Notes under the pieces: model-generated
Database searches by the model: none
The model's input: the letters and a program-made list of their open reading frames with translations, nothing else
What the model was told of the DNA's origin: nothing
In this document: one piece after another, positions 7,068-29,159 of the stretch
Position numbering within the stretch: the first letter of the stretch is position 1
How the letters are laid out: every line of letters starts with the position of its first letter
Source: an uncultured Dongia sp.
Lineage (GTDB): Bacteria; Pseudomonadota; Alphaproteobacteria; Dongiales; Dongiaceae
DNA: 56,113 bases
Direction of reading: 5' to 3'
NCBI RefSeq assembly: GCF_936916975.1
Contig: NZ_CAKZGO010000010.1
Span: 1-56,113, forward strand
Translations under genes and position numbers: made by a program

Positions 7068-7150
7068 GACCGCACCCCATCGATCAGGTCTTGCGGGCGA
7101 CGCCTGCCCTGCGCCATCCTGCGCCGGGCAGATATTGCAGGAGCAACGAA

Positions 7151-9846: not shown

Positions 9847-9861
9847 GATGCTGAAACGCCC

Positions 9862-9942
9862 TCAGCGCGCCATGACGCGATGCGCCCGCAGGCGATCCGT
9901 GACGGTCGCTGCACGAATGACGGCGATGCAATTCGAGTCCAT
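9862..9942 (-). CDS. Possible 26-residue leader or small protein
   Basis: A short frame starting MDSNCIAVIR and ending HRVMAR, between the regulator gene and the copy 2 kinase. It is preceded by a very strong ribosome site (AGGGGAGG, 5 bases before the ATG), stronger than that of the kinase gene itself, whose ATG follows the stop by 15 bp. It may be a translated leader coupling ribosomes into the kinase. It does not resemble the L-rhamnose mutarotase that occupies this position in rhizobia. Evidence is only the ribosome site and position. Confidence 0.25.
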   Translation of the reverse strand: MDSNCIAVIRAATVTDRLRAHRVMAR

Positions 9943-9993
9943 ATCGGCCTCCCCTGTTTCACCTCACCCTTGAAGATCTGATGCCGCGAAAAG

Positions 9994-10782: not shown

Positions 10783-10879
10783 GTGTCCCCGTTGCGCTGC
10801 CGCCCAGTCTCGCCTTTCGGAATAGCCGGAATCAGGTTCGAGCGTCAAATACAAATCTTCAAAATCGCTCACAGATTGA

Positions 10880-10921
10880 TCATTTTGCATCGCAAAAACA
10901 AAATACTGCGATGCAAAATGA
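10880..10921. promoter_or_regulatory. Inverted-repeat operator between rhaR and rhaD
   Basis: Two perfect 15-base arms, TCATTTTGCATCGCA and its exact complement, flank a 12-base A-rich spacer. The arm itself contains TTTTGC-ATC-GCAAAA-type symmetry, so two half-operators face each other about 27 bp apart, centre to centre. It lies 97 bp upstream of the regulator's start and 69 bp upstream of the rhaD start, in an AT-rich patch. This is the expected place for a DeoR-family operator that controls both directions. No second copy was noticed upstream of the transporter operon. Confidence 0.65.
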
Positions 10922-10990
10922 CGGATTTCGTTGACCTGAAGGTCGTGCAGGCCTATTTCAGAGCCGAATGGGCAGCGTAGACTAGTCTGC

Positions 10991-13138: not shown

Positions 13139-13152
13139 CCAGGGAGGCAGCC

Positions 13153-14464: not shown

Positions 14465-15505
14465 TCAGGCCTGCGCTTTCTTGCGGTCGTCGGTGAGCTG
14501 CTTGCGGTAGCGTTCGGCATCCCAGTCAAGCAGCGCCATCTCCTCATCCTGCGGCAAGTAGCGGATGGGGGCATCGAGGGGCAAGCGGCTGATGACCAGC
14601 CCCAGGCATTCCAGCATCGCTTCAGCAGCGCGCGTGATGTCCTTTCGCACAAAGGCACCGGCGCCGGGGACCAGGAATGCAACCGGCGCAGGACGGTCCT
14701 GGAACGTGGAGAGATAGGCAGGGACCGTCATTCCCGCCGGCATCTGCGGCAGGGCCGGGCCGAGAAACACGACATGATCCGGATAGAGCGACCCGGCAGT
14801 GGCAACGGCAAGATTGTGCGAATCTGTTGCCAGGATATGGCTGTCCTCTGATACGGCGGGGCGATAATCGGTGCCGGCGCACAAGGCTTCTAGCCGCGAG
14901 ATGTCTGCCGATACGGCAGCGCGGGGGATAAGCTGAAGGCGTCGCTCGACATCCTGCATCAGTGCTTCTGCCGCGACCACATCGGAACCACCGACCAACA
15001 AGCCGTGATTACCGAGGATCAGCACATCCGGCTGCTTGTCCGCTGTGAGTGCGGCGATGGCCTGGCTGAGCGGCAGGCCGGGCCGGTAATATGGTAGCTT
15101 CGCCCATGAGAGCCCGGTCAGCTTTTCCCGCAAGGCGGCATCGCCATCGGTACGCACTGCCCAGGCGATCGTGTTGACCGCATGGACATGCAGCACCACT
15201 TTATGCGCCATCAACGCATGCAAGGATGTCTCGATCGAAGGGCGCAATTTAGTCGGACCTTGGTTGCTCAGAACCGGCATCACGCTGTTCTGATTGGCCA
15301 GCGCCTGCCGTGCACCGGCGAGATCGACCGCCACGAAGATATCATCACGCTGCGCGTCCGCCAGCCACAAGCCCGACGCCTTGACCCACAACGCATCCGC
15401 GATCTTGATCGAGGTGTTGCCGCCAGCACCCTGCACGAGATGCATGTCGGCGCCGATCCGCGCCGAGACTTCCCGGAGGCCGTCGAGTTCTGCCGACATG
15501 TTCAT
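14465..15505 (-). CDS. Class II aldolase/adducin family protein (two-lobed, RhaD aldolase-like)
   Basis: About 346 residues starting MNMSAELDGLREVSARIG. The first half matches a class II aldolase: GAGGNTSIK, VKASG, HVHAVNTIAW (metal histidines) and LGNHGLLVGG. The C-terminal half (YPDHVVFLGP, ACLL-free AFVRK) resembles the extra lobe seen in the aldolase part of RhaD proteins, but there is no dehydrogenase domain. The longer open frame to 15700 is not coding-like. It is the last gene of the 13-gene operon, 10 bp after the HAD gene. Likely cleaves a ketose-1-phosphate to dihydroxyacetone phosphate plus an aldehyde; the substrate is unknown. Confidence 0.75.
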   Translation of the reverse strand: MNMSAELDGLREVSARIGADMHLVQGAGGNTSIKIADALWVKASGLWLADAQRDDIFVAVDLAGARQALANQNSVMPVLSNQGPTKLRPSIETSLHALMAHKVVLHVHAVNTIAWAVRTDGDAALREKLTGLSWAKLPYYRPGLPLSQAIAALTADKQPDVLILGNHGLLVGGSDVVAAEALMQDVERRLQLIPRAAVSADISRLEALCAGTDYRPAVSEDSHILATDSHNLAVATAGSLYPDHVVFLGPALPQMPAGMTVPAYLSTFQDRPAPVAFLVPGAGAFVRKDITRAAEAMLECLGLVISRLPLDAPIRYLPQDEEMALLDWDAERYRKQLTDDRKKAQA

Positions 15506-15515
15506 GGTCTCTCCT

Positions 15516-16379
15516 TCACCAGGCCAGATGGTCGATGATCCAGTCGGGCTCGTTCGCCGGTCCTGCCGCGAGATCGCGCACGGCCTTCGGCACATCACGC
15601 GCGTTACGCAGGATCGGCGCATGAACACCCGCGGCGATGAGTACCGTCCGCATGCCGGCCTGGCACCCACCCAGTATATCGTGATCGAGGGAATCGCCAA
15701 TCACCACGACCCGCTTCGGCGCGGGATTTCCCAACTGTGACATCGCTGCCACGAAGATCGGCGGATGCGGCTTGCCGATATAGATGACACGGCCGCCCAT
15801 CGCCGCGTAATGCGCCGCAAGCGCACCTGGTGCCGGCATCAACCCGCCGGCGCCGAACATGGTGAGATCCGGGTTGGCGCAGAGCATCGGCAGCTGGCGG
15901 GAAATCGCCGTAGCAAAGATGGCTTGCCACGCCTCGGGCGCGGATTTGTCGTCATCGAGGCCGGCCAGCAGGATGAAATCGGCGACCGAAGGATTGCTGG
16001 CGATATCGACCGACAGGCCGGCAACAATCGACAGATCCCGGCCACGGGTGATGAGATAGCACCGCTTGCCCAATGCCGGGAAAGCCGCATGAGCAGGGTC
16101 GCGGAGGCCCCGCCACGCAACCTCGCCCGAGCTCAGCACACCGTCATATTCGTCGGCCGGCAATCCCAGATCCTGCAGACGGCGCAGGTTTTCGCTGGAT
16201 CGCTTGCCGGAGTTGGAGAGGACGAGAATCTTCTTGCCCCCCGCCCGCAACTTGGCCACACAGTCGCGCGCCGCCGGGAAAACGGCCTGCCCTTCATGGA
16301 GCGCGCCCCATTGGTCGAGCAGGACCGCGTCGAACTGATCGGCGATTTCACGAATGCCGTTGATCATTTCGGCCGTCAT
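15516..16379 (-). CDS. HAD-superfamily subclass IIA phosphatase (TIGR01459-like)
   Basis: A 287-residue HAD hydrolase. Motif I is DAVLLDQWGALHEG (DxWG form typical of the IIA group), motif II VLSNSGKRS, and the terminal region KPHPPIFVAAM...VVVIGDSLDHDILGG supplies the Lys and the GDSxxxDxxG motif. The family dephosphorylates small sugar phosphates or nucleotides; the substrate here is unknown. Its ATG overlaps the stop of the upstream kinase gene by 4 bases, so it belongs to the catabolic operon. A role in recycling a mis-phosphorylated or dead-end intermediate is inference. Confidence 0.75.
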   Translation of the reverse strand: MTAEMINGIREIADQFDAVLLDQWGALHEGQAVFPAARDCVAKLRAGGKKILVLSNSGKRSSENLRRLQDLGLPADEYDGVLSSGEVAWRGLRDPAHAAFPALGKRCYLITRGRDLSIVAGLSVDIASNPSVADFILLAGLDDDKSAPEAWQAIFATAISRQLPMLCANPDLTMFGAGGLMPAPGALAAHYAAMGGRVIYIGKPHPPIFVAAMSQLGNPAPKRVVVIGDSLDHDILGGCQAGMRTVLIAAGVHAPILRNARDVPKAVRDLAAGPANEPDWIIDHLAW

Positions 16380-17662
16380 GGCGGCCCCTCATGCAAGGCC
16401 AGCAGTGCCGCGCCATAGGCCGCCTCGGTCTGCCGGGCGCGTGTTACAGGCACGTTGAGATGGCGCTGGCGAATCTGGGTCCAGGCGTCGTTGCTCGCAC
16501 CGCCACCGATGCTGATCACACGGCGCAGGGCTGGTGCACCCAACTCCGTCAGCCGCGCATAGGCCGAGCGCTCGATCTCGGCGATACCTTCGAGCATGCC
16601 CTGAAAGAATGTGACATCGCTTGCCGGGCGCGGCGTCAGGCGGGGGGCGAGATCTGGGTCGTTGATGGGAAAGCGCTCCCCGGGCTTGGACAAAGGGTAA
16701 TAGTCGAGGCCGGTAGGATGGGCCGGATCGAGTTGCGAGGTCAATTCGGCGATGCGCGCTGCGTCGAATTGCGCAAGCAATGCGGCCCCTCCACTGTTGG
16801 AAGCACCGCCGGCGAGCCAGCGATCCCCCAGCCGGTGGCTGTAGATGCCCTGTGGGGCCGCGAAGACAGGCCGGTCGGAGAGCAGCTTGAGGACCAGGGT
16901 GGTGCCAAGTGACGTCACCGCATCTCCCGGCATCTGCGCGCCGGTGGCGATGAAGGCCGCGACACCATCCGTGGTGCCCGCGCAGATTTGTGTCTCCGAC
17001 GAAAGGCCAAGCCGTGCTGCTATCTCCGCCTCAATCGTCCCGAGATTCGTGCCGGGCACAGCGACGTCCGGCAATAGATGGCGCGGAACACCGAGCTGTT
17101 CGAGCCATGCCGGCCATTGCCGCCCGATCGGATCATAGCCGAGCTTGAGGGCATTGTTCTCGTCACTGAAATCGAAGCGGCCGAGCAGCCGGCCGGCGAT
17201 CCAATCGGCCTGATGCACCGCATGTCGGCAGTCGCTGGATGCATCCGGCAGGAGATGGAGAAGTTTGGCAAGCGCCGCACTAGGCCCTTGGGCACCGCTT
17301 TCCGACGGCGCCACCGCCTTGATTCGTGCCGCCGCCTGGCCAGCGCGCCCATCGTTGTACATAAGGCCCAATGAGCGCGGTGCACCCTGTCCGTCGACGA
17401 GTAGCAGCGTGCCGGATGTGCCATCGATGGCGATGCGCGCAACCTTGCCGAGGTCGCACGTCTTGGCGAGCTGCGCCAAGACGGCCATCACCGCCTGCCA
17501 CCAGATGTCCGGATCCTGGTCAATCGCCGCGCCCTGCTGGCGCGGTGCCGGCATGGATACCGCGCTGGTGGCAATCACCTGCGCAGCAGCATCGATCGCA
17601 TTGATGCGGACGCCGCTGGTACCGATATCGATGCCGAGACAAAGCGTGCCGGCGTCAGACAT
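16376..17662 (-). CDS. FGGY-family D-ribulokinase-like kinase (SePSK / XK-1 type)
   Basis: A 428-residue FGGY kinase. It opens with GIDIGTSGVRINAID and has IAIDGTSGTLLLVD, HQADW, NALKLGYDP, ICAGTTDGVAAF, AVTSLGTTLVLKLLS, GLDYYPL and GERFPINDPD. As I recall them, the same landmarks occur in the cyanobacterial SePSK and plant XK-1 D-ribulose kinases, which are shorter than xylulokinases. The expected reaction is D-ribulose + ATP to D-ribulose-5-phosphate, though a related ketose is possible. It overlaps the GlpD-like gene upstream by 8 bases and the HAD gene downstream by 4, indicating tight coupling. Confidence 0.75.
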   Translation of the reverse strand: MSDAGTLCLGIDIGTSGVRINAIDAAAQVIATSAVSMPAPRQQGAAIDQDPDIWWQAVMAVLAQLAKTCDLGKVARIAIDGTSGTLLLVDGQGAPRSLGLMYNDGRAGQAAARIKAVAPSESGAQGPSAALAKLLHLLPDASSDCRHAVHQADWIAGRLLGRFDFSDENNALKLGYDPIGRQWPAWLEQLGVPRHLLPDVAVPGTNLGTIEAEIAARLGLSSETQICAGTTDGVAAFIATGAQMPGDAVTSLGTTLVLKLLSDRPVFAAPQGIYSHRLGDRWLAGGASNSGGAALLAQFDAARIAELTSQLDPAHPTGLDYYPLSKPGERFPINDPDLAPRLTPRPASDVTFFQGMLEGIAEIERSAYARLTELGAPALRRVISIGGGASNDAWTQIRQRHLNVPVTRARQTEAAYGAALLALHEGPP

Positions 17663-19196
17663 GGGCGACCGGTTCAGCCGACGTCAGTCCCTCATGATTG
17701 AGGCTCAAGAACCAGCGCTCGAAGCTGCCGCGTTCTTCCGGCGTCAGATGCAGGCCGTGCTTGGTACGCCGTTCCAACACATCTTCCGGTGATTGTGCCC
17801 ATTCGGCGCGCAGTAGAAACCGTGCCTCACGTTCATAAAGAATGCTGCCGAAATGCCTGCCAAGATCCGTCATGGCCTTGGCGTCGCCAAGTAGATCAAT
17901 GGCGCGCGTGCCATAGAGCCTGGCGTAATGCTGCGCTATGCCAGGATTCAGCCAGGGCCAGGCCCGCAGGAAGGCCGCCAGCCACGGCTCGAAATCCGCA
18001 CCAGGAATATCGCCACCCGGCAGCGTTGCGTGTGCCGTCCAAGACTTGTCCATATTCGGAAAGAAAGGGGCGAGCTTCTCTAACGCGTGTTCTGCAAGCT
18101 TGCGGTAGGTCGTGATCTTGCCCCCGAACACTGAGAGAATCGGTGGTGCACCATCGGTCGCTACCTTGGGGTCGACATCGAAGACATAGTCGCGCGTCAC
18201 TGCCGAGGGGTTGGCGGCGTTATCATCGTAAAGTGGTCGCACGCCGGAAAAACTGTGCACGATGTCGGCACGGCCTGGCGGTTTGGCGAAATAGCGCGCA
18301 AGCACGTCGAGCAGATAATCGATTTCCGTTTCGTCAACGCGCGCATCTTCCGGCTGACCCTCGACGGCGATATCGGTGGTACCGACCAATGCCAAATCAC
18401 CTTCATAAGGATTGACGAAGATCACCCGCTTGTCGTGGTTCTGCAGCAGATAGGCGTGATCGCCTTCCCAGAACTTACGGATGACGAGATGACTGCCCTT
18501 GACCAGTCGCACCCGCCGTTGGCTGCTGATGCCCTTGACCTGCCCCAGCATATTCTCGACCCAGGGGCCTGCCGCGTTGACCACGCAGCGCGCCATGACC
18601 GTGAAACGGTGGCCGTCGCCGGCGTCTTGCAACTCGACTTCCCACGCATCGCCGGCACGTTTCGCGCTGGTGACCTTGGTACGGGTAAGGATCCGGGCGC
18701 CATGCTGTTGCGCGTCGAGCGCGTTCAACACGACGAGCCTCGCATCATCCACCCAGCAATCGGAATATTCAAAGGCCTGGTGGAACTCAGGTTTTATCGG
18801 CTCGCCGACAGGGTCGCGAGCGAGATCGATGGCGCGCGTCCCCGGCAGTTTCTGGCGACCGCCCAGATGGTCATAGAGGAAGAGTCCGAGCCGCAGCAGC
18901 CAGGCTGGCCGTTGCTCGGGACTGTGGGGCAGCACAAAGCGCATCGGCCAGATGATGTGCGGGGCCGCTCGCAGCAAGACTTCGCGTTCGATCAAGGCCT
19001 CCCGCACCAGGCGGAATTCATAATATTCGAGATAACGCAGACCGCCATGAACCAGCTTGCCGCTGCGTGACGAGGTGCCCTGGGCCAGATCGTCCCGTTC
19101 GCACAGCATCACGGAGAGTCCTCGGCCGGCGGCATCGCGGGCGATTCCTGCCCCGTTTATGCCGCCGCCGATGATGAGAAGGTCAACGCGTTCCAT
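17655..19196 (-). CDS. FAD-dependent polyol-phosphate dehydrogenase, GlpD/EryB family
   Basis: A 513-residue flavoprotein of the glycerol-3-phosphate dehydrogenase family, oxidising a polyol phosphate at the inner membrane and passing electrons to quinone. It shows the FAD site IIGGGINGAGIARDAAGRGLSV, then SSRSGKLVHGGLRYLEYYEF, VNAAGPWV, VGTTD, SFSGVRPL and FGGKITTYRKLAE, all hallmarks of GlpD. Length is right for GlpD (about 500). The dedicated kinases and transporter around it suggest its substrate could be a different polyol phosphate, as with EryB of erythritol catabolism; plain glycerol-3-phosphate remains possible. Confidence 0.85.
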   Translation of the reverse strand: MERVDLLIIGGGINGAGIARDAAGRGLSVMLCERDDLAQGTSSRSGKLVHGGLRYLEYYEFRLVREALIEREVLLRAAPHIIWPMRFVLPHSPEQRPAWLLRLGLFLYDHLGGRQKLPGTRAIDLARDPVGEPIKPEFHQAFEYSDCWVDDARLVVLNALDAQQHGARILTRTKVTSAKRAGDAWEVELQDAGDGHRFTVMARCVVNAAGPWVENMLGQVKGISSQRRVRLVKGSHLVIRKFWEGDHAYLLQNHDKRVIFVNPYEGDLALVGTTDIAVEGQPEDARVDETEIDYLLDVLARYFAKPPGRADIVHSFSGVRPLYDDNAANPSAVTRDYVFDVDPKVATDGAPPILSVFGGKITTYRKLAEHALEKLAPFFPNMDKSWTAHATLPGGDIPGADFEPWLAAFLRAWPWLNPGIAQHYARLYGTRAIDLLGDAKAMTDLGRHFGSILYEREARFLLRAEWAQSPEDVLERRTKHGLHLTPEERGSFERWFLSLNHEGLTSAEPVAHV

Positions 19197-19206
19197 ATCG
19201 TCCGTT

Positions 19207-19950
19207 CTAGCCAGCGCGCGCCCGCTTCGCCACGGCTTTCTTCACTGCTTTGGGCTTTGCCTTTGCTGCCGGCTTGCGCGCGGCAGCAGGCTTTTGACGT
19301 GGGCCGTAGTTCTTGAATTTCTCGATGACGTGGCTGATCTCGCGGTCGTCCAGCACCTGGGCGTCATCGAGCAGCAGGGTGAGATAGTATTGCCGCGCGA
19401 TGGTCTCCACTTCGACCGCCAGCCACAATGCCTTGCCGACATTGGCGCCTGTCGCAATCACGCCGTGATTGCGCAGCAGACAGCAGGTGCGCCCCTCCAG
19501 CGCTTTCATGGCATGTTCGGACAATTCCTTGGTGCCGTAAGTGGCATACGGCGCCACCCGGATATCCGGCCCGCCGCCTGCAGCGACCATGTAATGAATG
19601 GCCGGAATGGGCTTGTTGCAGATGGCGAGCGTGGTGGCATAGGTGCTGTGGGTATGCACCACAGCGCCGACATCCGGTCTTGCACGCATGATGTCCATGT
19701 GAAAGCGCCATTCAGAGGACGGGTCCAGCGGTCCCGACCAGCTGCCATACTCTCCCTTGATCGGCATGGTGGCGATGTCCTTGGGCGTCAGCGCGTCGTA
19801 AGAAACGCCGGTTGGCGTGATCAGCATGATGTCCTTATAGCGGGCGCTGATATTGCCCGACGTTCCCTGGTTGATGCCGAGGCCATTCATGGACTGGCAG
19901 GCCTTGATGATGCTGCGCCGGATATCGAGTTCTTCCTTGGTCATGGCCAT
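19207..19950 (-). CDS. Class II aldolase, FucA-like, with Lys/Ala-rich C-terminal tail
   Basis: A 247-residue protein. Residues 1-205 are a single-domain class II aldolase of the L-fuculose-1-phosphate aldolase type: NQGTSGNISAR (phosphate binding), ITPTGVSYD, SSEWRFHMDI (catalytic Glu region), VVHTHSTYAT (metal histidines) and LLRNHGVIATG (third histidine). Cleavage of a ketose-1-phosphate to dihydroxyacetone phosphate is expected. The last ~38 residues are unusual: they repeat KPAA-, KAKPK- and KKAVAKRA-like units and resemble a histone H1 tail, not an aldolase. It lies 10 bp upstream of the GlpD-like gene and 5 bp downstream of the dehydrogenase gene. Confidence 0.82.
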   Translation of the reverse strand: MAMTKEELDIRRSIIKACQSMNGLGINQGTSGNISARYKDIMLITPTGVSYDALTPKDIATMPIKGEYGSWSGPLDPSSEWRFHMDIMRARPDVGAVVHTHSTYATTLAICNKPIPAIHYMVAAGGGPDIRVAPYATYGTKELSEHAMKALEGRTCCLLRNHGVIATGANVGKALWLAVEVETIARQYYLTLLLDDAQVLDDREISHVIEKFKNYGPRQKPAAARKPAAKAKPKAVKKAVAKRARAG

Positions 19951-19955
19951 AGCTT

Positions 19956-21002
19956 TCAGCAGGGGTTGAGAGGTTGTTCGCCCGCGGCGTGGCGCCGGAT
20001 CTCCTCGGCGATCATGCGGGCGGCGATGCGGACGGTGGTGGTGGAGGCGCCGGCGATATGCGGCGTCAGGGTGACATTGTCGAGCTGCAGCAGCGGTGCA
20101 TCAGCAGGCGGTGGTTCAAGCCAGAAGGTCTCCAGCATCGCCCCACGCACATGGCGTGATTTCAGTGCGTGATACAGATCGTCGTAATTCACCATGGGCC
20201 CGCGCGCGGTGTTGATGAAATAGGCGCCTCGCTTCATACGGGCGAATTGTGCCGCGGCGAGGAATCCCTTGGTCTCATCGGTGACGCGCGCATGCAGGCT
20301 GACCACGTCGCTCTCACGCAGCAGGGTGTCGAGATCGACCGCCTGGACGCCGTCGGCCGTGTCGTCGGGTGACAGGACGCGGTAGGGATCAGCCACCAGG
20401 ATACGGCAGCCGAACGGCTTCAGCAGCTTGACCACACGCGTCCCGATATGGCCATAGCCGATCAGGCCCACGGTCATTTCCGAGAGTTCCGCATCGATCT
20501 TGTCGAAGCGGTAGAGGTCACCTCGCCAGACGCCCTGCCGCAGCGCTTCGTGGCCGGCACGGATGAGGCGTGTTTCAGAGAGGATCGCGGCGATAGTGAA
20601 TTCGGCGACGGCGGAGGCATTGCGGCCAGGCGTGTTGACCAGCTTCACCTTGCGGGCACGGCAGGCCTCGATATCGATATTGACCGGCCCGCCGCGGGAC
20701 ACGGCGATCAACTTCAAATCCGGCAGCCTGTCGAGAATTGCACCATTGATTGGCGCCAGATGGTTGATGAGAACATCGGCGCCCTTGACGAAAGCCACCA
20801 CCTCATCCGGCTCGCCTTGATATTCGCGCAGGCCTTCCAGGCCGCCATCGACATAACCATGCCGCATTGGCTCATCCGGCCAGGGAAGTTCCTTGGTGCG
20901 AATCTCGACCAGCAAATCAGGCACCTTCTTCAGCGCCTCGGTGAAGGCGGCCGGTTTCATGAAGTTGTCGCCGATTACCGCGACATTGAGCTTACGCATC
21001 AT
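19956..21002 (-). CDS. D-isomer-specific 2-hydroxyacid dehydrogenase (SerA-like)
   Basis: A 348-residue NAD-dependent dehydrogenase. The cofactor motif is GLIGYGHIGTRV; catalytic Arg is in SRGGPVNID, Glu in AMLETFWLEP and His in LTPHIAGAS. The size fits the short phosphoglycerate-dehydrogenase-like group, with no ACT domain. Its ATG overlaps the stop of the upstream kinase gene by 4 bases, so it belongs to the operon. It may oxidise or reduce a hydroxyacid made from the aldehyde product of the aldolases (for example glycolate or glycerate); that is inference. It is unlikely to be the serine-biosynthesis enzyme given its setting. Confidence 0.82.
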   Translation of the reverse strand: MMRKLNVAVIGDNFMKPAAFTEALKKVPDLLVEIRTKELPWPDEPMRHGYVDGGLEGLREYQGEPDEVVAFVKGADVLINHLAPINGAILDRLPDLKLIAVSRGGPVNIDIEACRARKVKLVNTPGRNASAVAEFTIAAILSETRLIRAGHEALRQGVWRGDLYRFDKIDAELSEMTVGLIGYGHIGTRVVKLLKPFGCRILVADPYRVLSPDDTADGVQAVDLDTLLRESDVVSLHARVTDETKGFLAAAQFARMKRGAYFINTARGPMVNYDDLYHALKSRHVRGAMLETFWLEPPPADAPLLQLDNVTLTPHIAGASTTTVRIAARMIAEEIRRHAAGEQPLNPC

Positions 21003-22564
21003 GGTTTCCTGTGTTGTGCCGCAGCCAGATCCGCCCAGAGCGGGGGCATGGCCTGTCGTGTCTTGAGATAGATGGGGAAAAGTTCGTCATAGCGCGCCTT
21101 CAGCGCGGGGTCTGGCGCAATGGTGCCGCGCAGGGTGGGCGTCACCCAATCCGCCACGGCCCTTTCCATATCCGGAATGGCCCCGATGGCAACTGCCGCC
21201 ATCATGGCGGCGCCGGCAGCGCCCGCCTCCTCCCGCGCCGTCTCCCGGACGGGCACGCCGAGACCGCTCGCCAGCAAGGTCTTCAAGGCGCGCGAGCGCT
21301 TGGCGCCGCCCGCCACACGGATCTCGTCCGGCAATTGGCCCATGGCGGTGTAGCAATCGCGCGCCGCCAGTACTAGGCCGTCATAGACTGTGCGGACCAG
21401 TTCGGCAAACCCTGTGCGGTGGGTGAGACCGATGAACTGGGCGCGGGCATAGGCATCGACAAATGGACCTCGCTCACCGGCTTCATGGATATAGGGGTGA
21501 TAGATCTCCGCATGGGGCCGCGCCTCCAGCACCAGGGCATCGAAGGCCGCCAGCGCATCCGGGCGCGAGACGTCCTTGCCGAGGATGCGGGCGGCATCAC
21601 GGCCGATATCGACAATCCAATCAATGTTAAGGGTCGCTGCCATGTTGGACTGCATCTGTGCTGCGGCGCCAGCTACTGGAAAGGACATGGTGTAGCCGCT
21701 GGGTTCGGCAGCAAGATTGAGCGACGCCGCCTCCGGTACATAGCGCATATGCATGGCCGTCGAGCCAACGATCGAGCAGCCGACGGACTGACCCGGCTGA
21801 TAGAGACCACCGCCCAAGGCCGTGCAGACAACATCGACTGCACCCAGCGAAACCGGCAGGCCGATGGGGAGGCCGATCGCCTTGGCGGCCGCAGCGGTCA
21901 GCCCATGAGTCATCTTGCTGCCGTCGACGATTTCCGGCAGCAAGTCGCGGCGATTGGCGATCTCCAGCCAGTCGAGAATTTCCGGAACATATTCGCGCGT
22001 ACGGAAATTGCCGAAGGTGAAGACGCCCTCGCTGACATCGGTCGCCCGCCGCCCGGTGAGGCCCAGATAGAGCCAATCCTTGCAATGATGTGCCGACACC
22101 GCCTTGTCGAGGATCTCCGGCGTGTATCGCTGCATCCAGGCCATCTGGGCACTTTGCGAACAGGCATTCAAGCCGCAGCCGGTGTAGGCGTACATCCTGC
22201 GACGAACGCCGCTCGCTTCATGTTCGCGCACCAGATCAGCAGCGCGGGAATCGAGCCACAGCCAGGCGGGTGCCACCGGCTGCCCGTCGCGGTCGACCAA
22301 CCAAGTGCCATCGCCCTGCCCCGTGATGGCAAGAGAGGCCGCGCGATCCTTCAGCGCAGGTGTCTTGTCCGTCAGCTCGCGCAGGACATCAACCGTGTCG
22401 CGCCAGGTGCGCGCCATGTCCTGTTCAACCGCGCCACCATCGCGCGTCTCATAGACATTCGGCTTCGACGCTGCGGCAATCTGGTTGCCGGCGAGATCGA
22501 ATACCAGCGCCTTGATGACCGACGTGCCGGCATCGACCGCGACGATGAGGTCACGCTCCACCAT
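20999..22564 (-). CDS. FGGY-family kinase, erythritol kinase (EryA)-like
   Basis: About 521 residues from MVERDLIVAVDAGTSVIKAL, overlapping the upstream ATPase stop by one base; the longer frame to 22753 is spurious. Segments VDAGTSVIKALVFD, ITGQGDGTWLVD, AWLWLDSRAA, HHCKDWLYLGLTG, SEGVFTFGNFRTR and GCSIVGSTAMHM resemble the alphaproteobacterial erythritol kinase EryA as I remember it. The FGGY signature lies in VAGGAKRSRALKTLLASGLG near the C-terminus. It should phosphorylate the imported polyol or ketose with ATP. The companion EryC-type isomerase of erythritol loci is missing, so the substrate may differ. Confidence 0.78.
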   Translation of the reverse strand: MVERDLIVAVDAGTSVIKALVFDLAGNQIAAASKPNVYETRDGGAVEQDMARTWRDTVDVLRELTDKTPALKDRAASLAITGQGDGTWLVDRDGQPVAPAWLWLDSRAADLVREHEASGVRRRMYAYTGCGLNACSQSAQMAWMQRYTPEILDKAVSAHHCKDWLYLGLTGRRATDVSEGVFTFGNFRTREYVPEILDWLEIANRRDLLPEIVDGSKMTHGLTAAAAKAIGLPIGLPVSLGAVDVVCTALGGGLYQPGQSVGCSIVGSTAMHMRYVPEAASLNLAAEPSGYTMSFPVAGAAAQMQSNMAATLNIDWIVDIGRDAARILGKDVSRPDALAAFDALVLEARPHAEIYHPYIHEAGERGPFVDAYARAQFIGLTHRTGFAELVRTVYDGLVLAARDCYTAMGQLPDEIRVAGGAKRSRALKTLLASGLGVPVRETAREEAGAAGAAMMAAVAIGAIPDMERAVADWVTPTLRGTIAPDPALKARYDELFPIYLKTRQAMPPLWADLAAAQHRKP

Positions 22565-23706
22565 CAATGCACCTTGGACGCGAGGCCATGAGCCAAAGCC
22601 CGACCTGAGACAGCATCGAACAAATGAACCGCCTTCGCCGGGACACGCAATGCCAGGGCCTTGCCGATTTCGGTTTCGACCGGCCGTTCTGTGACACAGA
22701 CAACGTTGGTACCGGCGACATCCAGGCAGATATGGCTTTGATCGCCCAGCCAATGATTGCTGATGATCCGGCCGGTGGCGACGGCATCTTCGCTTGTCGG
22801 CGAGGCATCTGCGCCAAGCGTAATGAGATGCGGGCGAATGCCGATTCGCACATCCTGGCCCGCGACGTTTTCCAGCAGCGGCGCTTTGAGGCTGAAGGCC
22901 GCCTGACCGCCAGCGCCCAGCGCGTTGATCCGCAGGTGATCGCCGGCGTGATCGAGATGAGCGTCAAAGATGTTCATCGGCGGTTCACCGACGAAACTCG
23001 CCACGAACAGGTTGTTGGGCCGCTCCTTGATCTCCGCCGGCGTCCCAAATTGTTGCAACTCGCCCTTCTCCATCACCGCAATCCGGTCCGCCAACGCAAT
23101 CGCCTCGGTCTGGTCATGAGTCACGAACAGGGTCGTCATCTTGTGCTCGATCAGATAGTCCTTCAACCGGGCGCGGACGATGGCGCGCAATTGCGGCTCC
23201 AATTGCGACATCGGCTCGTCGAGCAGCGAGACGGGTGCGCGCCGGATGAGGGCGCGGGCGAGCGAGGTGCGCTGCTGCTGTCCGGCCGAGATGACGGTCG
23301 GGTAGCGATCGAGGATATCTGTGATCTCGAGCAATTCCGCGACCTGGCGGACCCTGGCCTCGATCTCGGCATTGGCCTTCTTTTCGCGCAGGAGGGCAAA
23401 GGCGACGTTTTCGCGCACCTTCAGCGGCGGGTACAACGAATAGCCTTCAAATGCCATGGCGACACCGCGCTGCGAGGGCGGCAGGTTGTGGATCTCCTGC
23501 CCACCGATGCGGATGGCACCTTCCGTCACTTCCTCGAACCCGGCCACCATGCGCAGCATGCTGGTCTTGCCGCAGCCGGACGACCCCAGAAGCGCCACGA
23601 TCTCGCCGTCCTTGATGTCCAAGCGAACCTGCTTCACCGCGCGGATCGGTGCCTTGGCGCGCGGCGCGTAGGTCTTCGAGATATCGTCGAGCAAAAGGTT
23701 TGCCAT
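22564..23706 (-). CDS. CUT1 sugar ABC transporter ATPase (second of a non-identical pair)
   Basis: A 380-residue MalK-type ATPase from MANLLLDDISKTY, with GAGG before the ATG; a TTG five codons upstream is less likely. Walker A GSSGCGKTS and Walker B VSLLDEP are intact, switch His is in FVTHDQTE, and the C-terminal TOBE-type regulatory half is present. Two positions are unusual: the Q-loop glutamine is Glu (AMAFEGYSLYP) and the signature is ISAGQQQR instead of LSGGQ. The D-loop reads SQLEP. It presumably forms a heterodimer with the ATPase at 23718-24818. Its stop overlaps the EryA-like kinase start. Confidence 0.85.
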   Translation of the reverse strand: MANLLLDDISKTYAPRAKAPIRAVKQVRLDIKDGEIVALLGSSGCGKTSMLRMVAGFEEVTEGAIRIGGQEIHNLPPSQRGVAMAFEGYSLYPPLKVRENVAFALLREKKANAEIEARVRQVAELLEITDILDRYPTVISAGQQQRTSLARALIRRAPVSLLDEPMSQLEPQLRAIVRARLKDYLIEHKMTTLFVTHDQTEAIALADRIAVMEKGELQQFGTPAEIKERPNNLFVASFVGEPPMNIFDAHLDHAGDHLRINALGAGGQAAFSLKAPLLENVAGQDVRIGIRPHLITLGADASPTSEDAVATGRIISNHWLGDQSHICLDVAGTNVVCVTERPVETEIGKALALRVPAKAVHLFDAVSGRALAHGLASKVH

Positions 23707-23717
23707 GATCGCCAGCC

Positions 23718-24818
23718 TCAATTCACGCGCGGTGCCAGGCGCTGACCGCTGGCCGCATCAAACAGGAGTATATCGTCCGGCGCGAAGCTCACCCAGACCT
23801 TGCGATGGCCGCGACCGAAGCGCGCCGCCTCGCTCTCGCCGACCGTCGCCAGGACCTCTTCGCCGGCCGGGCCACGGAGATAGAGGACGCTGCGCACATT
23901 GACCGGCATCACGGCATCCAGATCGAACTCAACGCTGCCGGGCGTGTTCGTTTCCGTGACGATCACATGCTCCGGCCGCAGCCCGGCAACGAGATCGCGG
24001 CCGGTGGCCTCGGCATAGGCCTCCGAAACGGGGCTAACCCGACCGAAGGCGTGAATCTGGCTGCCCTGCCCCACCGTTTCCAGCCGGCAAGGTGCCAGGT
24101 TGATGGTCGGATCGCCGAACAGCCGCGCCACGTCAAGCGAGACCGGTGCGCGGTAGACATTGGTGGGCGTGTCCCATTGCTCGATCCGCCCGTTGCGCAA
24201 CACGGCGATATGATCGCCCAGCGCCATGGCCTCCTTGTAGTCCTGCGTCACATAGATCACGGCGCTGTTGAACGTCCGCAGTAGCCGCGGCAGTTCCAGG
24301 CGCATCTCATAGCGCAGCTTCGCATCGACATTGCGCAGCGGATCGTCCAGCAGCAGGACTTTGGGCTGCCCAATCAGGGCGCGGGCGAGTGCCGTACGTT
24401 GCTTTTGGCCGTTGGAGAGCTCGCGCGGTGCATGGCCCAGCACATGGTCGATCTTCAGCATGCGGGCAATGGCCGAGACCTGCTCCTTCAGCCGACCTTC
24501 CGGTACATTCCGCGCGGTGAGCGGGCTGGCAATATTGTCATGGGTGCTGAAATGCGGAAACAAGGCGAAGTTCTGGAACGCCATGCCGACATTGCGCGCC
24601 TCCGGCGAAGCATCGGTCATGTCCACGCCATCGATGGTGATCCCGCCTGCATCCGGCTCCTGCACGCCGGCGACGATGCGCAGCAGCACGGTCTTGCCGG
24701 TGCCCGACGGGCCGAACACCACGACGATCTCCCCGGCTTTCACCGAGAGTGAGACATCCTCCAGCACCATGCCGGATTTGAAGCCCTTGGAGATGTTGCT
24801 GAGTTCAAGACTGGACAT
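23718..24818 (-). CDS. CUT1 sugar ABC transporter ATPase (first of a non-identical pair)
   Basis: A 366-residue MalK-type ATPase starting MSSLELSNISKGF, 2 bp after the permease stop; the open frame to 25187 lies inside the permease gene and is rejected. Walker A is GPSGTGKTV, Q-loop MAFQNFALFPH is normal, but the signature is LSNGQKQR and the Walker B catalytic Glu is replaced by Asp (VLLLDDPLRNVDAK). The switch position reads YVTQDYKEA, with Gln where His is usual. The C-terminal regulatory half is present. Such changes often mark the less active site of a heterodimeric ABC ATPase. Confidence 0.85.
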   Translation of the reverse strand: MSSLELSNISKGFKSGMVLEDVSLSVKAGEIVVVFGPSGTGKTVLLRIVAGVQEPDAGGITIDGVDMTDASPEARNVGMAFQNFALFPHFSTHDNIASPLTARNVPEGRLKEQVSAIARMLKIDHVLGHAPRELSNGQKQRTALARALIGQPKVLLLDDPLRNVDAKLRYEMRLELPRLLRTFNSAVIYVTQDYKEAMALGDHIAVLRNGRIEQWDTPTNVYRAPVSLDVARLFGDPTINLAPCRLETVGQGSQIHAFGRVSPVSEAYAEATGRDLVAGLRPEHVIVTETNTPGSVEFDLDAVMPVNVRSVLYLRGPAGEEVLATVGESEAARFGRGHRKVWVSFAPDDILLFDAASGQRLAPRVN

Positions 24819-24820
24819 AG

Positions 24821-25678
24821 TTATCCCTTCACCGCGCCGAGCGACAGGCCTTCGACCAGATAGCGCTGGGCATAGAGCGCCAGCAGCAAGGTCGGCGTCA
24901 CCGAGAGGACAATCGCCGCCGCGATCTGGCCATATTGGATGCCCGAGGCTGTCACGAAGGCAAGCGCCCCCACAGTCACCGGCTGCTTCGAGGCGGAGGC
25001 CAGGATCAGCGCAAAGATGAAATTGTTCCAGGCGAAGATGAAAGCGAGCAAGCCGGCCGCAGCGATTCCAGGTCGCGCCAACGGAATGGCAATGCGCCGG
25101 AATGTCCGCCACCAGGAATGGCCGGCGATGCGATAGGCGTTCTCGATATCCGGGCTGATATCCTCGAAATAGCCGCGCACAATCCACAGGATGAGCGGCA
25201 GGCAGATCAGCTGATAGACCCAGATGAGACCGATATAGGTGTCGGTAAGCCCCAACTGTTTGAAGAACAGGCTGAGGGGCAAGAGCACCAGCAGCGGTGG
25301 TGCAAAACGGAACGACAGCAAGGTGAAGGCAATGTTCTCACCCAGGCGGAACTTGAACCGCGCAAAAGCATAGGCCGCGGGGACGCCCAGCGCCAGGGAG
25401 AGCAGCACCGAGAAGGTCGAAAGCAGCAGTGAGTTGCCCAGATTGCGCATGAAGGCGATGTCGAGAGACCCCGCCGCCGTTTCCAGCTTGCCGGTGAGCA
25501 GGGCCGAATAGTTCTGCAGCGTCGGCTCGAAGAACAGGCTCGGCGGAATGCGCAGGATGTCCTCATTGGTCTGGAAGGACATCAGAAAAATCCAGAAGAT
25601 CGGAAACAGGAAGAACAGCAGCACGGCGGTAATCAAGATGCCGCGGATGGCTTTCTCCAAGGATGAGCTGCGTTCCAT
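24821..25678 (-). CDS. CUT1 sugar ABC transporter permease (MalG/UgpE-like)
   Basis: A 285-residue inner-membrane permease with six hydrophobic segments. After the first (ILITAVLLFFLFPIFWIFLMSF) comes a periplasmic loop, and the cytoplasmic EAA loop reads ENAYRIAGHSWWRTFRRIAIPLARPG, as in MalG-type proteins. The C-terminus ends with YLVEGLSLGAVKG, another MalG-like trait. It is 9 bp downstream of the partner permease and 2 bp upstream of the first ATPase gene. It should form the channel with the permease ending at 25688. Confidence 0.9.
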   Translation of the reverse strand: MERSSSLEKAIRGILITAVLLFFLFPIFWIFLMSFQTNEDILRIPPSLFFEPTLQNYSALLTGKLETAAGSLDIAFMRNLGNSLLLSTFSVLLSLALGVPAAYAFARFKFRLGENIAFTLLSFRFAPPLLVLLPLSLFFKQLGLTDTYIGLIWVYQLICLPLILWIVRGYFEDISPDIENAYRIAGHSWWRTFRRIAIPLARPGIAAAGLLAFIFAWNNFIFALILASASKQPVTVGALAFVTASGIQYGQIAAAIVLSVTPTLLLALYAQRYLVEGLSLGAVKG

Positions 25679-25687
25679 GGTCGCTCC

Positions 25688-26635
25688 TCAGGCCGGTCCG
25701 TGGGCGCGTTCGCGCAGTTTCAGCCAATGCTTGATGAAGATGTTCGACAAGGCATAGGTGATCGCCCACAGCACGATGAGGAGTGCCGCCGAGCGGCCGA
25801 CATTTGTGTATTGGAAGAACTCCAGATAGGCCTGCACCTGGAACACCATCAATGTGTCACCCGGCCCACCCTGGGTCATCGAATAGACGATATCGAATTG
25901 CTGCATCGAATCCAGCAGGCGAAATAGGCTAGCCGTGATGATGTAAGGCATCAACATCGGCAAGGTGATGCGGAAGAAGACGAAGGAGCGTGGCACGCCA
26001 TCGAGTGCAGCCGCTTCAAACGGCTGCTTGGGCAACGAGCGGAGGCCTGCCAGCAGCAGGATCATGATAAAGGGCGTGTAGACCCAGACGTCGACCAGCA
26101 CCACGGTAAAGAGCGCGCTCGACGGATCCGACGCCCAGTTGAAATTGTCGAAACCAAGCTGGCTCACGAGATAGCTGAGGATGCCGAAATTCGGATTGGT
26201 CATCAGCTTCCACATCAGGGCCGCCAAGGCCGGCGCCGTCATCAACGGCAGCAGCAGCATGATCGAGGCGGCATTGTTGATCTTGGTCGGTCGCACCAGC
26301 AGGAGTGCGATACCGAGGCCCAGCAGCAATTCGCCCGTCACCGTCACCAGCGCATAGACCAACGAGACCTGAACCGTATTCCAGAAGGCGGCGTCGGTCA
26401 GGAATGAGATATAGTTATCCACCCAGATAAAGCCTTTCATCATGGGTAGATTGAGACGGAAGCGCAGGGTCGAATAATAGACCGCTGTGAAGAACGGGAT
26501 GAGGATGCCGATGCACACCAGCAGCGCCGGCAGGCTGAGGAGATAGGGCAGAAAGCGCCGCATAGTGAGGCGGCGGGGTCTATTGGGGTGGGCGGCGACA
26601 GTCATATGCGTGCGGACCAGATCCAGGAAAGTCAT
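25688..26635 (-). CDS. CUT1 sugar ABC transporter permease (MalF/UgpA-like)
   Basis: An inner-membrane permease of about 315 residues. Six hydrophobic segments begin with FLPYLLSLPALLVCIGILIPFF; the EAA loop is EAAALDGVPRSFVFFRITLPMLMP. The start is uncertain. The frame is open to an ATG at 26698, but that would translate a strong hairpin at 26664-26694. I chose the ATG at 26635 (MTFLDLV); 26605 and 26563 are alternatives, and none has a clear ribosome site. It lies between the binding-protein gene and the second permease in the operon. Confidence 0.85.
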   Translation of the reverse strand: MTFLDLVRTHMTVAAHPNRPRRLTMRRFLPYLLSLPALLVCIGILIPFFTAVYYSTLRFRLNLPMMKGFIWVDNYISFLTDAAFWNTVQVSLVYALVTVTGELLLGLGIALLLVRPTKINNAASIMLLLPLMTAPALAALMWKLMTNPNFGILSYLVSQLGFDNFNWASDPSSALFTVVLVDVWVYTPFIMILLLAGLRSLPKQPFEAAALDGVPRSFVFFRITLPMLMPYIITASLFRLLDSMQQFDIVYSMTQGGPGDTLMVFQVQAYLEFFQYTNVGRSAALLIVLWAITYALSNIFIKHWLKLRERAHGPA

Positions 26636-26663
26636 CGCGTTCGGTTGAAAGGACGGAAAGAAA

Positions 26664-26694
26664 GGCGGCGACCCGTGGGAGTCGGGCCGCCGCC
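26664..26694 (-). terminator. Attenuating hairpin between binding-protein and permease genes
   Basis: On the minus strand, a 12-bp stem (GGCGGCGGCCCG against CGGGTCGCCGCC, one G-U pair) closes a 7-base loop and is followed by TTTCTTTCC. It starts 15 bp after the binding-protein stop. In many importer operons a hairpin here stops part of the transcripts or protects the 3' end, giving more binding protein than membrane subunits; that role is inferred. Confidence 0.5.
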
Positions 26695-26708
26695 CCATCG
26701 GCCGGGAA

Positions 26709-28151
26709 TCAGCCGCCTAGGCCTGCATCTTCCAGCTGCTTGTCGACGCTGGCCGCCAATTGGTCGAGGCCTTCGTCGATCGGCACTTCCTTCGCCACCA
26801 TCTTCTGCAGCGTTTCCGCCCATTGCGTGGTGAGATCGAAGAACAGCGGCTGGGCCGTGAAGTAGATCTTCGCCCCCGGCGCCGAGGCATCATGCTGGTT
26901 GAGATAGCCGGGATAGGATTTGTCGATACGGCCGCGGAACTCCTCGTCCTTCCAGACAGAGGCACGGACCGGGTTGACGAAATCCATCTTCCTAGCGCCG
27001 AACAGATCATGCTCGACCGAGGACGCCCATTGCATGAAGTACCAGGCCGCGTCTTTCTGGGCCGAGAAGCTGGACATGGCCAAGGACCAGATCCACACAT
27101 TCGGCGTTGGCGCGGTCGCAGCGGGATTCGCGGCAAAGGGCGCGTAATGGATATTGCCCTTCTCCTTATTGTCGCCGCCATTCATGAAGTAGCCCAGGAT
27201 GTCGGCGTCGAAAATCATCGCCGAGGCGCCGGCGCCGAGATCGGTGCCGACCTGGTACCAGGTATAGGTCGACCAGTTCTTCGGCCCGGATTCCTGGATC
27301 ATCTGCACCCAGAGCTTGTGATAGGCCTTGGATTCGGCGGTGTTCATCGCCGCCTTCAGTTTGCCATCGGTGACGGTGAAGTCGCGCTGGCCGTAATTCG
27401 AATAGCCGGACAGGAAGCCCGGATGGATCGAGGCCCAGGAACGCGATCCGCGCACGCCGACACCGTAAGGACCGCCGGCATCCTTGGTGAGCTTGGCCGC
27501 AACGCCGACCATATCTTCGAGGTTCTTCGGCGGTTCGACGCCGACTTTGTCGAAGATTTTCTGGTTGTAGGAGAGGTTGTTGAGTTCATAGCCCCACGGA
27601 ATGCACCATTGCTTGGCATCGGCGGAGCCAAGCTCGCCGCCCGGTACGCCATTCCAGGCCGTCGATGCACGCAGCCCCGGCAGGACGTCTTCCCAATCGT
27701 AATTGGGATTGGTCTTGGCCGGGTCCTTGATATAGGCGTTGAGATCTTCGATCCAGCCGGCCGGACCATAAGTCCATGTCATATAGGCGCCGGTCATGAA
27801 GGCGTCATATTCGCTGGAACCTGACGACAGCGCTGCCGTCACCTTGTCGAAATAGACATCTTCCGGGAACACGTCATAGCTCACATCCATACCGGTCAGC
27901 ATCTTGAAGTTCTCAAGATCGGCCACCATGGCGTCGACGTAAGGATGCTTGTTGAGCAGCAGCTTCAGCTTGGTGCCGCTGTACTTCTTCCAATCGAAAT
28001 CGGCAGCCATTGCCTGGCCCATAGCTTGGGCGACCAGGAAACTGGTCGCTGCCACGCCCAGGCCCAATTGCCCAGCGCGCTGGATCAACTCTCGACGACC
28101 GATTTGCTTGCGTACAAAGGCGGCCGCCAGATCATGCCCTTTCTCAAACAT
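26709..28151 (-). CDS. CUT1 sugar/polyol ABC transporter binding protein, probable Tat substrate
   Basis: A 480-residue family 1 extracellular solute-binding protein. The N-terminus has a long basic region and then GRRELIQRAGQLGLGVAATSFLVAQ...AMA, which looks like a twin-arginine signal (RR at 19-20) with cleavage near residue 49. The mature part begins DFDWKKYSGTKLKLLLNKHPY, with WGYELNNLSYNQKIFDKVGVEPPKNLEDM typical of sugar- and polyol-binding proteins. It is the second gene of the operon, 24 bp after the regulator, and is followed by a hairpin that may raise its level over the permeases. Ligand unknown; a polyol fits the enzymes downstream. Confidence 0.85.
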   Translation of the reverse strand: MFEKGHDLAAAFVRKQIGRRELIQRAGQLGLGVAATSFLVAQAMGQAMAADFDWKKYSGTKLKLLLNKHPYVDAMVADLENFKMLTGMDVSYDVFPEDVYFDKVTAALSSGSSEYDAFMTGAYMTWTYGPAGWIEDLNAYIKDPAKTNPNYDWEDVLPGLRASTAWNGVPGGELGSADAKQWCIPWGYELNNLSYNQKIFDKVGVEPPKNLEDMVGVAAKLTKDAGGPYGVGVRGSRSWASIHPGFLSGYSNYGQRDFTVTDGKLKAAMNTAESKAYHKLWVQMIQESGPKNWSTYTWYQVGTDLGAGASAMIFDADILGYFMNGGDNKEKGNIHYAPFAANPAATAPTPNVWIWSLAMSSFSAQKDAAWYFMQWASSVEHDLFGARKMDFVNPVRASVWKDEEFRGRIDKSYPGYLNQHDASAPGAKIYFTAQPLFFDLTTQWAETLQKMVAKEVPIDEGLDQLAASVDKQLEDAGLGG

Positions 28152-28175
28152 GGTACCGTCTCCTCTCCAGGATTT

Positions 28176-29159
28176 TTATCGCTTGGCCATTTTCTTGCCG
28201 GCCGCAACGTCGCTGCCATCGAGCGTGTCGACGATGGCTTTTGCGGTCGCCTCATCCGTGATCAGGCCTTTAATCACGTGACTTTCCAGAACAGCTTTGA
28301 TTGCCTCGATCTTGTTGGCGCCGCCCGCGATGGCAACGACGGACTTCCCCTTGATTTCCTCAAGCTTGAGCGCCACCGCGCGGTCATTGAGCTCCGCCGC
28401 GACCGCCTTGCCCGTCTTGTCGAGAAAGCGGCCAATGACTTCACCGACGGCGCCAGCGCGCTTCACCTCGCGCAGCTCCTTCTCCGTCACCGTGCCGGTC
28501 GCCAGCATATGCGCCTGCGAGCCCACCTCGCCGATACCGACTACATAGAGTTCGGCGGCACGGGCCAGCGAGAACACGTCCTTCAGGCTCTTCTGGGCCA
28601 GAAGGACCTTTTTGTCGGCGATGCTGTCGGCAAAGAATGGCGCCGGCATGAAATAGCATTCAGCACCCGTCACCTCGACCAGGCGATGGATGACGTCGAA
28701 GGGGTTGGCGGCGGCGTGGCGCGTCAAGCTGCCGAGCAAGGAAACGAAGCGGATATCCGGCCGGGCGATGCGCGGCAGATAGCGCACGACTTCGTCCAGC
28801 GTACGCCCATGGCCGATGCCGATGAGCTTGGCCTCGCCCCGCTCCAGCACGCCGTGCAGGTAATGCGCACCGGCCGCGGCCAAGGTGCGCAGCGGCAAGG
28901 CATTGTCGTCGACGGTGGGCGATACAGAACAGAAATCGAGCTGCCAATGGGCGGCAATGCGGGATTCGAGGGCGACGCATTCGGCCGCATTTCCTTCGAC
29001 GAACACGCGCACCAGACCGGCCTCGGTCGCTTCCGCGATCAGGCGATTGATCTTGACGCGCGAGAGGCCGAGCTTCTGCGCGATCTCTTCCTGCGTATAG
29101 CCGCCGATGAAGGAGAGCCACGCGGCTCTGGCCGCGAGGCTACGCTCGTTTCCCTGCAC
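28176..29159 (-). CDS. SorC-family sugar-binding transcriptional regulator (EryD-like)
   Basis: A 327-residue regulator. Residues ~18-50 form the helix-turn-helix (GYTQEEIAQKLGLSRVKINRLIAEATEAGLV); the remainder is the SorC sugar-phosphate sensor domain, with IGHGRTLDEVVRYLP and AIAGGANKIEAIKAVL. SorC-type proteins usually repress sugar or polyol operons until a phosphorylated intermediate binds. It is the first gene of the 13-gene operon and so likely controls itself. An inverted repeat TGAAC-ATTA-GTTCA lies 34 bp upstream of its start. EryD of erythritol operons is of this family; that comparison supports, but does not prove, a polyol inducer. Confidence 0.85.
   Translation of the reverse strand: MQGNERSLAARAAWLSFIGGYTQEEIAQKLGLSRVKINRLIAEATEAGLVRVFVEGNAAECVALESRIAAHWQLDFCSVSPTVDDNALPLRTLAAAGAHYLHGVLERGEAKLIGIGHGRTLDEVVRYLPRIARPDIRFVSLLGSLTRHAAANPFDVIHRLVEVTGAECYFMPAPFFADSIADKKVLLAQKSLKDVFSLARAAELYVVGIGEVGSQAHMLATGTVTEKELREVKRAGAVGEVIGRFLDKTGKAVAAELNDRAVALKLEEIKGKSVVAIAGGANKIEAIKAVLESHVIKGLITDEATAKAIVDTLDGSDVAAGKKMAKR

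Follow-up and report, generated by a model that had tools for sequence, protein, structure and literature searches.

A thirteen-gene operon in an uncultured Dongia, very probably a pentitol locus of the Sinorhizobium polyol family

The window analysed here spans positions 1 to 56,113 of contig NZ_CAKZGO010000010.1 from an uncultured Dongia sp. (Dongiaceae; NCBI RefSeq assembly GCF_936916975.1). Its positions 14465-29159 carry thirteen open reading frames, confirmed on the minus strand, whose 12 junctions are overlaps of at most 8 bases or gaps of at most 24 (-8 to +24). An earlier note, made from the letters of this DNA alone, had described thirteen tightly joined genes on one strand. That description holds, and so do its family assignments: a SorC regulator, a CUT1 importer with two ATPases, two FGGY kinases, a GlpD-type flavoprotein, two class II aldolases, a 2-hydroxyacid dehydrogenase and a HAD phosphatase. 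We find that the operon very probably serves the use of pentitols (ribitol/adonitol and L-arabitol) and belongs to the mpt-ery-lal-rbt family known from Sinorhizobium, in the form called category 3. The genes follow in transcription order, with protein identities from global alignments.

28176..29159, minus strand: EryD-type SorC-family regulator, gene 1, with sugar-binding domain PF04198 (Pfam 1.8e-65)
26709..28151, minus strand: MptA-type solute-binding protein (SBP_bac_1)
25688..26698, minus strand: MptB-type permease (73-76% to Sinorhizobium; the true start may be further in)
24821..25678, minus strand: MptC-type permease (80% to S. fredii and Sinorhizobium sp. M103)
23718..24824, minus strand: MptD/E-type ATPase 1 (53% to Sinorhizobium)
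22564..23706, minus strand: MptD/E-type ATPase 2 (55-56% to Sinorhizobium)
20999..22564, minus strand: EryA-type FGGY polyol kinase (51% to the proteins that hold the EryA position in S. meliloti and S. fredii)
19956..21002, minus strand: RbtA (name by position), SerA-type 2-hydroxyacid dehydrogenase (59% to Sinorhizobium)
19207..19950, minus strand: FucA1-type, or FucA-like, class II aldolase (59% to the protein that occupies the FucA1 position in S. meliloti)
17655..19196, minus strand: predicted EryB, GlpD-type flavoprotein polyol-phosphate dehydrogenase (66% to Sinorhizobium; tree)
16376..17662, minus strand: RbtB (name by position), small FGGY kinase (52-53% to Sinorhizobium; 65% to Bradyrhizobium L028)
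15516..16379, minus strand: RbtC (name by position), HAD-IIA phosphatase, TIGR01459 (192.8 bits, above the cut-off of 103.75; 60% to Bradyrhizobium L028)
14465..15499, minus strand: LalA (name by position), second class II aldolase, similar to the aldolase half of bifunctional RhaD (55% to Bradyrhizobium L028)

In the sections of their report drawn on here (PMC3599248), Geddes and colleagues describe a 17-gene erythritol/adonitol/L-arabitol locus of S. meliloti, eryD-mptABCDE-eryA-rbtA-fucA1-eryB-lalA-rbtBC-eryC-eryR-tpiB-rpiB, in which lalA-rbtB-rbtC is named as a suboperon, and a plasmid-borne locus of S. fredii NGR234 that is complete except for fucA1. The same sections place loci of Bradyrhizobium BTAi1 and ORS278, Acidiphilium and Verminephrobacter, all without eryC, eryR and tpiB, in category 3, and state that for some of the loci polyol use had not yet been demonstrated. 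We recovered the 17 genes in S. meliloti Ak57 (CP090106) as the operon's set plus EryC, a DeoR-type regulator, TpiB and RpiB, and found the operon's set without FucA on NGR234 plasmid b; at E 1e-40, EryA had one match in the S. meliloti record (51%) and two on plasmid b (51% and 30%). The Ak57 record (L002; L numbers denote loci) is labelled pSymB, yet at 3.72 Mb it is probably the chromosome. In its locus the binding protein, one permease and the HAD gene are each split over two hits, which looks like an assembly error.

The Dongia operon shares with the S. meliloti locus the regulator, transporter, EryA, dehydrogenase, FucA, EryB, aldolase, kinase and HAD genes, in identical order up to eryB, with protein identities to loci of this type of 39-80%. 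It differs in lacking eryC-eryR-tpiB-rpiB and in its closing trio, which runs kinase-HAD-aldolase here and aldolase-kinase-HAD in S. meliloti. The gene order thus matches a characterised polyol operon in all but the position of the last aldolase gene, an outcome that the earlier note had named as counting against its proposal of an unknown substrate and a possibly new pathway. We reject that proposal because the gene set is that of a described locus type, the isomerase-free form of which is category 3. The note was right that isomerases are absent, but their absence has already been described for loci of this family.

Membership was assessed against the homologue cut-offs in the consulted part of PMC3599248 (EryA 46, EryB 65, EryD 44, MptA 56, RbtA 50, RbtB 51, LalA 49, RbtC 40 and TpiB 69%), which were applied there with BLASTP and here to global alignments. 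Six of the eight cut-offs applied to the window's proteins are passed: by EryA (51%), EryB (66%) and EryD (48%, to the proteins that hold the EryD position in S. meliloti and S. fredii), by MptA (73% to S. fredii NGR234, the best plasmid records giving 72%), and by RbtA (59%) and RbtB (52-53%). As in category 3, the operon has eryABD, mpt and lal/rbt-type genes and no eryC, eryR or tpiB. It differs from Bradyrhizobium stretches in our own set of EryA loci (other strains than BTAi1 and ORS278) that have the trio beside the regulator: there the trio lies on the opposite strand, whereas in the window it ends the operon. The erythritol loci of Brucella and R. leguminosarum (category 2) also have EryA and EryB homologues, but, as far as the same sections of PMC3599248 describe them, use the transporter EryEFG, have EryC, EryR and TpiB, and contain no rbt or lal genes.

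The erythritol branch of the pathway is incomplete in this genome. EryA, B, C, H and I are given, in the part of PMC10190533 consulted, as the five catabolic genes that let E. coli grow on erythritol. At E 1e-5, EryC was absent from the window's genome, in a search in which two control records gave matches. EryH, which we take to be TpiB, had a single Tpi match at 38%, under the TpiB cut-off of 69%, and EryI, presumably RpiB, a single match at 42%, so that no complete EryA-EryB-EryC-EryH-EryI pathway was found. EryR is not in the operon, to which the search for it was confined. In the congener Rhodospirillaceae bacterium R-7 (L058), EryC and TpiB lie together outside the locus, RpiB has matches of 80% and 37%, and the locus, the only part of that genome searched for FucA, is without it. 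In-frame TGA codons, listed for EryC in 7 genomes, were considered as recoding. We rejected this: the aligned part of six loci (L025, L027, L030, L031, L042 and L045, two of them cut at the stretch end) contains no internal stop, and the codons probably lie past the protein end.

A neighbourhood comparison on genome contigs yielded 66 loci with an EryA-like kinase, genes being called by tblastn at 60 bits or more and 33% identity or more. The dehydrogenase accompanies the kinase in 64 of them, EryB in 62, the second aldolase in 37, the small kinase in 36, FucA in 34, the HAD gene in 32 and EryC in 11; all thirteen genes lie within the fetched stretch in 25. These counts are lower bounds because many stretches are cut, and the two loci without the dehydrogenase (L074 and L082) lie on contigs that break off at the kinase. 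The grouping of these genes is not due to chance. Acidiphilium iwatense (L072) has the same thirteen, with the second aldolase preceding the small kinase; two Shinella records end after FucA, and in Shinella sp. H4-D48 a different plasmid carries a match to the small kinase. By the kinase, the closest named relatives are Dongia deserti (73%), Rhodospirillum sp. PB1.008 (a metagenome-assembled genome; 72%) and Rhodospirillaceae bacterium R-7 (72%), the next-best EryA match in the window's own genome being 31%. Ten of the thirteen window proteins are 71-90% identical to their counterparts in the relatives L019, L020 and L058, where these are present. The literature surveyed held no earlier report of this locus type in the host family, and the rhizobial polyol locus is now extended to Dongia-like bacteria.

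A plain glycerol operon (GlpK/GlpD) draws support from the flavoprotein, which scores 808.6 bits with the GlpD model PRK13369 (cut-off 352). However, the genome holds a second GlpD, to which the window protein is 55% identical, compared with 66% to Sinorhizobium EryB, and in a tree of 91 rows the 69 locus proteins, the window's among them, split from 22 other GlpD-type proteins on a branch with 98% support in the Shimodaira-Hasegawa-like approximate likelihood ratio test. The tree was built by a quick method, with three long rows flagged by the program; rows with coverage below 85%, identity below 45% or lengths outside 450-560 residues, and three duplicates (L013-L015), were excluded. By its sequence relationships we identify the GlpD-like protein as EryB, and a glycerol operon is highly improbable.

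The likely substrates are ribitol and L-arabitol. The S. meliloti EryA and MptABCDE proteins handle erythritol, adonitol and L-arabitol, which are stereochemically identical over three carbons (PMC3599248, in the sections used), and the part of PMC10433430 consulted includes L-arabitol among the MptABCDE substrates in two places and reports that Mpt plays no part in the transport of sorbitol or mannitol. Among solved structures, the best relative of MptA is labelled a sorbitol-binding protein (E 1.5e-17), too distant a relative for the binding protein to decide the substrate. We framed a stereochemical rule on two assumptions: that EryB, like GlpD, requires the carbon adjoining the phosphate to be configured as in sn-glycerol-3-phosphate, and that EryA requires the carbon after it to be configured as in erythritol. 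Applied to the projections of 15 alditols besides glycerol, the rule is satisfied by five: erythritol, ribitol and L-arabitol, the only C4-C5 alditols to fit, and, among the six-carbon alditols entered, allitol and L-rhamnitol. The predicted EryB products of the first three would be D-erythrulose-1-phosphate, D-ribulose-1-phosphate and L-xylulose-1-phosphate. At C3 and C4, D-ribulose-1-phosphate has the arrangement of L-fuculose-1-phosphate, and L-xylulose-1-phosphate that of L-rhamnulose-1-phosphate.

Because L-rhamnitol meets the same rule, it or another deoxypolyol might enter the operon and be sent on, as L-rhamnulose-1-phosphate, into the rhamnose-type locus next door, where rhaI and a bifunctional RhaD-type gene adjoin the operon. 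Kinase-HAD-aldolase trios within or beside rha-type genes occur in Aminobacter, Bradyrhizobium ARR65 and Mesorhizobium. RhaI, though, turns up in a single one of the family's 66 stretches (L077), and we regard a deoxypolyol substrate as very unlikely.

The two aldolases of the operon suggest, without proving, how a pentitol pathway could end. Aligned with 1fua (226.7 bits), the FucA-like protein has E80, H99, H101 and H162 in place, which we take to be the catalytic Glu and the Zn ligands of FucA; it stays under the curated FucA cut-offs (PRK08087, 248 against 264 bits; TIGR01086, 230 against 400). The protein also ends in a tail of about 28 residues rich in Lys and Ala, which among nine relatives viewed is shared by L019, L020, L028, L043 and L065 and not by S. 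meliloti, Acidiphilium or Aurantimonas. In LalA, E90, H104, H106 and H165 are invariant across 21 rows. Its best models are bifunctional and RhaD-type (1.2e-18, compared with 2.9e-06 for the best FucA-named model), although it covers the aldolase half alone and reaches 63 bits against the TIGR02632 cut-off of 568. An AraD-type epimerase was considered for LalA and is disfavoured because of these RhaD-type models; the sole epimerase model at E 0.001 represents one subfamily (2.7e-04). The literature searched held nothing relevant on an L-xylulose-1-phosphate/rhamnulose-1-phosphate aldolase in connection with L-arabitol.

The earlier note's outline, in which one operon serves to import a polyol, phosphorylate it with an EryA-type kinase, oxidise the product with a GlpD/EryB-type enzyme and then cleave it with an aldolase, still suits these genes well. 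An MptABCDE-type transporter would import the polyol, EryA would phosphorylate a primary hydroxyl, and EryB would oxidise the adjacent carbon to give a 2-ketose 1-phosphate. Ribitol would thus yield D-ribulose-1-phosphate, to be split by the FucA-like aldolase, and L-arabitol would yield L-xylulose-1-phosphate, to be split by the RhaD-like LalA, both giving dihydroxyacetone phosphate and glycolaldehyde. We offer these two branches with stereochemically matched aldolases tentatively, as a possibility that falls short of probable. In the non-carboxylating pentose bisphosphate pathway of halophilic archaea, a FucA-family enzyme, the ribulose-1-phosphate aldolase, is reported to convert ribulose-1-phosphate into the same two products, dihydroxyacetone phosphate and glycolaldehyde (PMC9700705, in the part consulted). 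The difference is that ribulose-1-phosphate comes there from ribulose bisphosphate through a phosphatase, and the window's FucA scores 185 bits with the model of that aldolase, whose cut-off is 300. Genes with no assigned reaction in the literature consulted (RbtA, RbtB, RbtC, LalA and FucA1) gain specific, testable candidate steps from the present reading. In RbtA, for which the earlier note suggested aldehyde handling as a possible role, R267, E296 and H315, presumably the catalytic triad, are invariant in 18 aligned rows.

FucA could alternatively stand in for EryC, TpiB and RpiB on erythritol itself, cutting D-erythrulose-1-phosphate into dihydroxyacetone phosphate and formaldehyde. What speaks for this is the rarity with which an in-locus fucA and a genomic eryC occur together: EryC is present in the genome of 1 of 30 loci with FucA near EryA (Stappia sp. 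BW2), compared with 13 of 19 without it (Fisher p 1.2e-6). The count rests on 50 of the 66 loci picked by hand, of which 49 were counted (L051 was left out); the 16 omitted stretches were shorter or cut at an end, and L022, L034 and L066 among them hold FucA. Dereplication reduced 21 Bradyrhizobium, six Aestuariivirga-like (L025, L027, L030, L031, L035 and L045) and three Taklimakanibacter-like loci (L023, L026 and L037) to one each, leaving EryC in 1 of 10 loci with FucA and 8 of 12 without (p 0.011, for a 22-locus set chosen after seeing the data). The absences are uncertain because many of the genomes are metagenome-assembled. R-7, with EryC and TpiB elsewhere and no fucA in its locus, also fits, and NGR234 combines EryC with a locus that lacks FucA. 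FucA thus tends to be retained where EryC is missing, a pattern that fits either replacement or specialisation. Specialisation on pentitols explains it equally well, however, and formaldehyde release would be costly, so that erythritol cleavage by FucA appears improbable.

A different ending to the pentitol pathway is suggested by the small kinase and its HAD neighbour. The label 'ribulokinase-like' in the earlier note was loose: the best model for RbtB, xylulokinase TIGR01312, gives 147 bits where its cut-off is 380, and ribulokinase models give at most 51 bits. Entry of free ketoses through this second FGGY kinase could still occur, and RbtC and RbtB might together shift the phosphate, from ketose-1-phosphate through the free ketose to ketose-5-phosphate, as a parallel exit. 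Taken further, RbtC would dephosphorylate the EryB product and RbtB rephosphorylate it at C5 for the pentose phosphate pathway, leaving the aldolases as side routes. The consulted sections of PMC3599248 report lalA-rbtABC as genes of adonitol and L-arabitol use, and fucA as dispensable for erythritol, adonitol and L-arabitol in S. meliloti. An RbtB-like kinase was found in 44 of 49 genomes searched, and in 12 further stretches around small-kinase copies outside the first stretch the HAD gene adjoins the kinase every time (12/12), the second aldolase in 7. Yet phosphate relocation leaves two aldolases with intact residues without a role. L-xylulose-5-phosphate would require further epimerases, and these are not in the operon. 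We consider relocation as the main route a serious possibility, if less than an even one.

The settings of this module extend beyond the pentitol family. Ten of the 12 stretches (L121-L130) have it beside another SorC-type regulator, 36-37% identical to the window's, and nine of the ten also have a further EryA-like kinase and binding protein at 22-26%; an RpiB-like gene lies beside the module in L121, L122 and L128. These ten possibly represent a further type of polyol operon. In L131 (Mesorhizobium) the module stands beside RhaK-, RhaR- and RhaT-like genes, in L132 (Bradyrhizobium ARR65) beside rhaI, and in Aminobacter the trio lies within the rha operon. Since it occurs in several operon types, the module probably handles a ketose common to several pathways.

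Several points weigh against assigning the Dongia operon to the pentitol family with ribitol and L-arabitol as substrates and two aldolases as its ending. LalA (46-47%) and RbtC (39%, to S. fredii) fall slightly under their cut-offs of 49% and 40% against Sinorhizobium, and the names RbtA, RbtB, RbtC and LalA are themselves deduced from gene order and from the order and size of the published cut-offs. One passage of PMC10433430, in the part consulted, gives D-arabitol and not L-arabitol as an MptABCDE substrate, and D-arabitol does not satisfy the stereochemical rule. With fucA reported dispensable, the FucA step in S. meliloti is at best redundant. Both FucA and EryC are present in Stappia sp. 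BW2 and in S. meliloti (the latter outside the count), and 6 of the 19 loci without FucA are also without a genomic EryC. Finally, the occurrence of the kinase-HAD module in other operons means that its substrate range may be wider.

At 4567-14451 the operon abuts the rhamnose-type locus, which holds a RhaI that exceeds its curated cut-off, a bifunctional class II aldolase/short-chain dehydrogenase, and RhaR-, RhaK- and RhaT-like genes named by likeness to the Aminobacter rha operon. Two RhaK-type kinases stand there in tandem (7064-8506 and 8503-9846), and rhaI is convergent with the operon's last aldolase gene, their ends 13 bases apart. Upstream of the operon, on the same strand, lies an SMP-30/gluconolactonase-family gene (29392-30315). 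Cell-surface polysaccharide genes occupy 31187-54748 and encode a UDP-sugar dehydrogenase, a sugar transferase, glycosyltransferases, a pyruvyl transferase, a flippase-type protein and export proteins, with a weak O-antigen ligase match, below its cut-off, in the same region.

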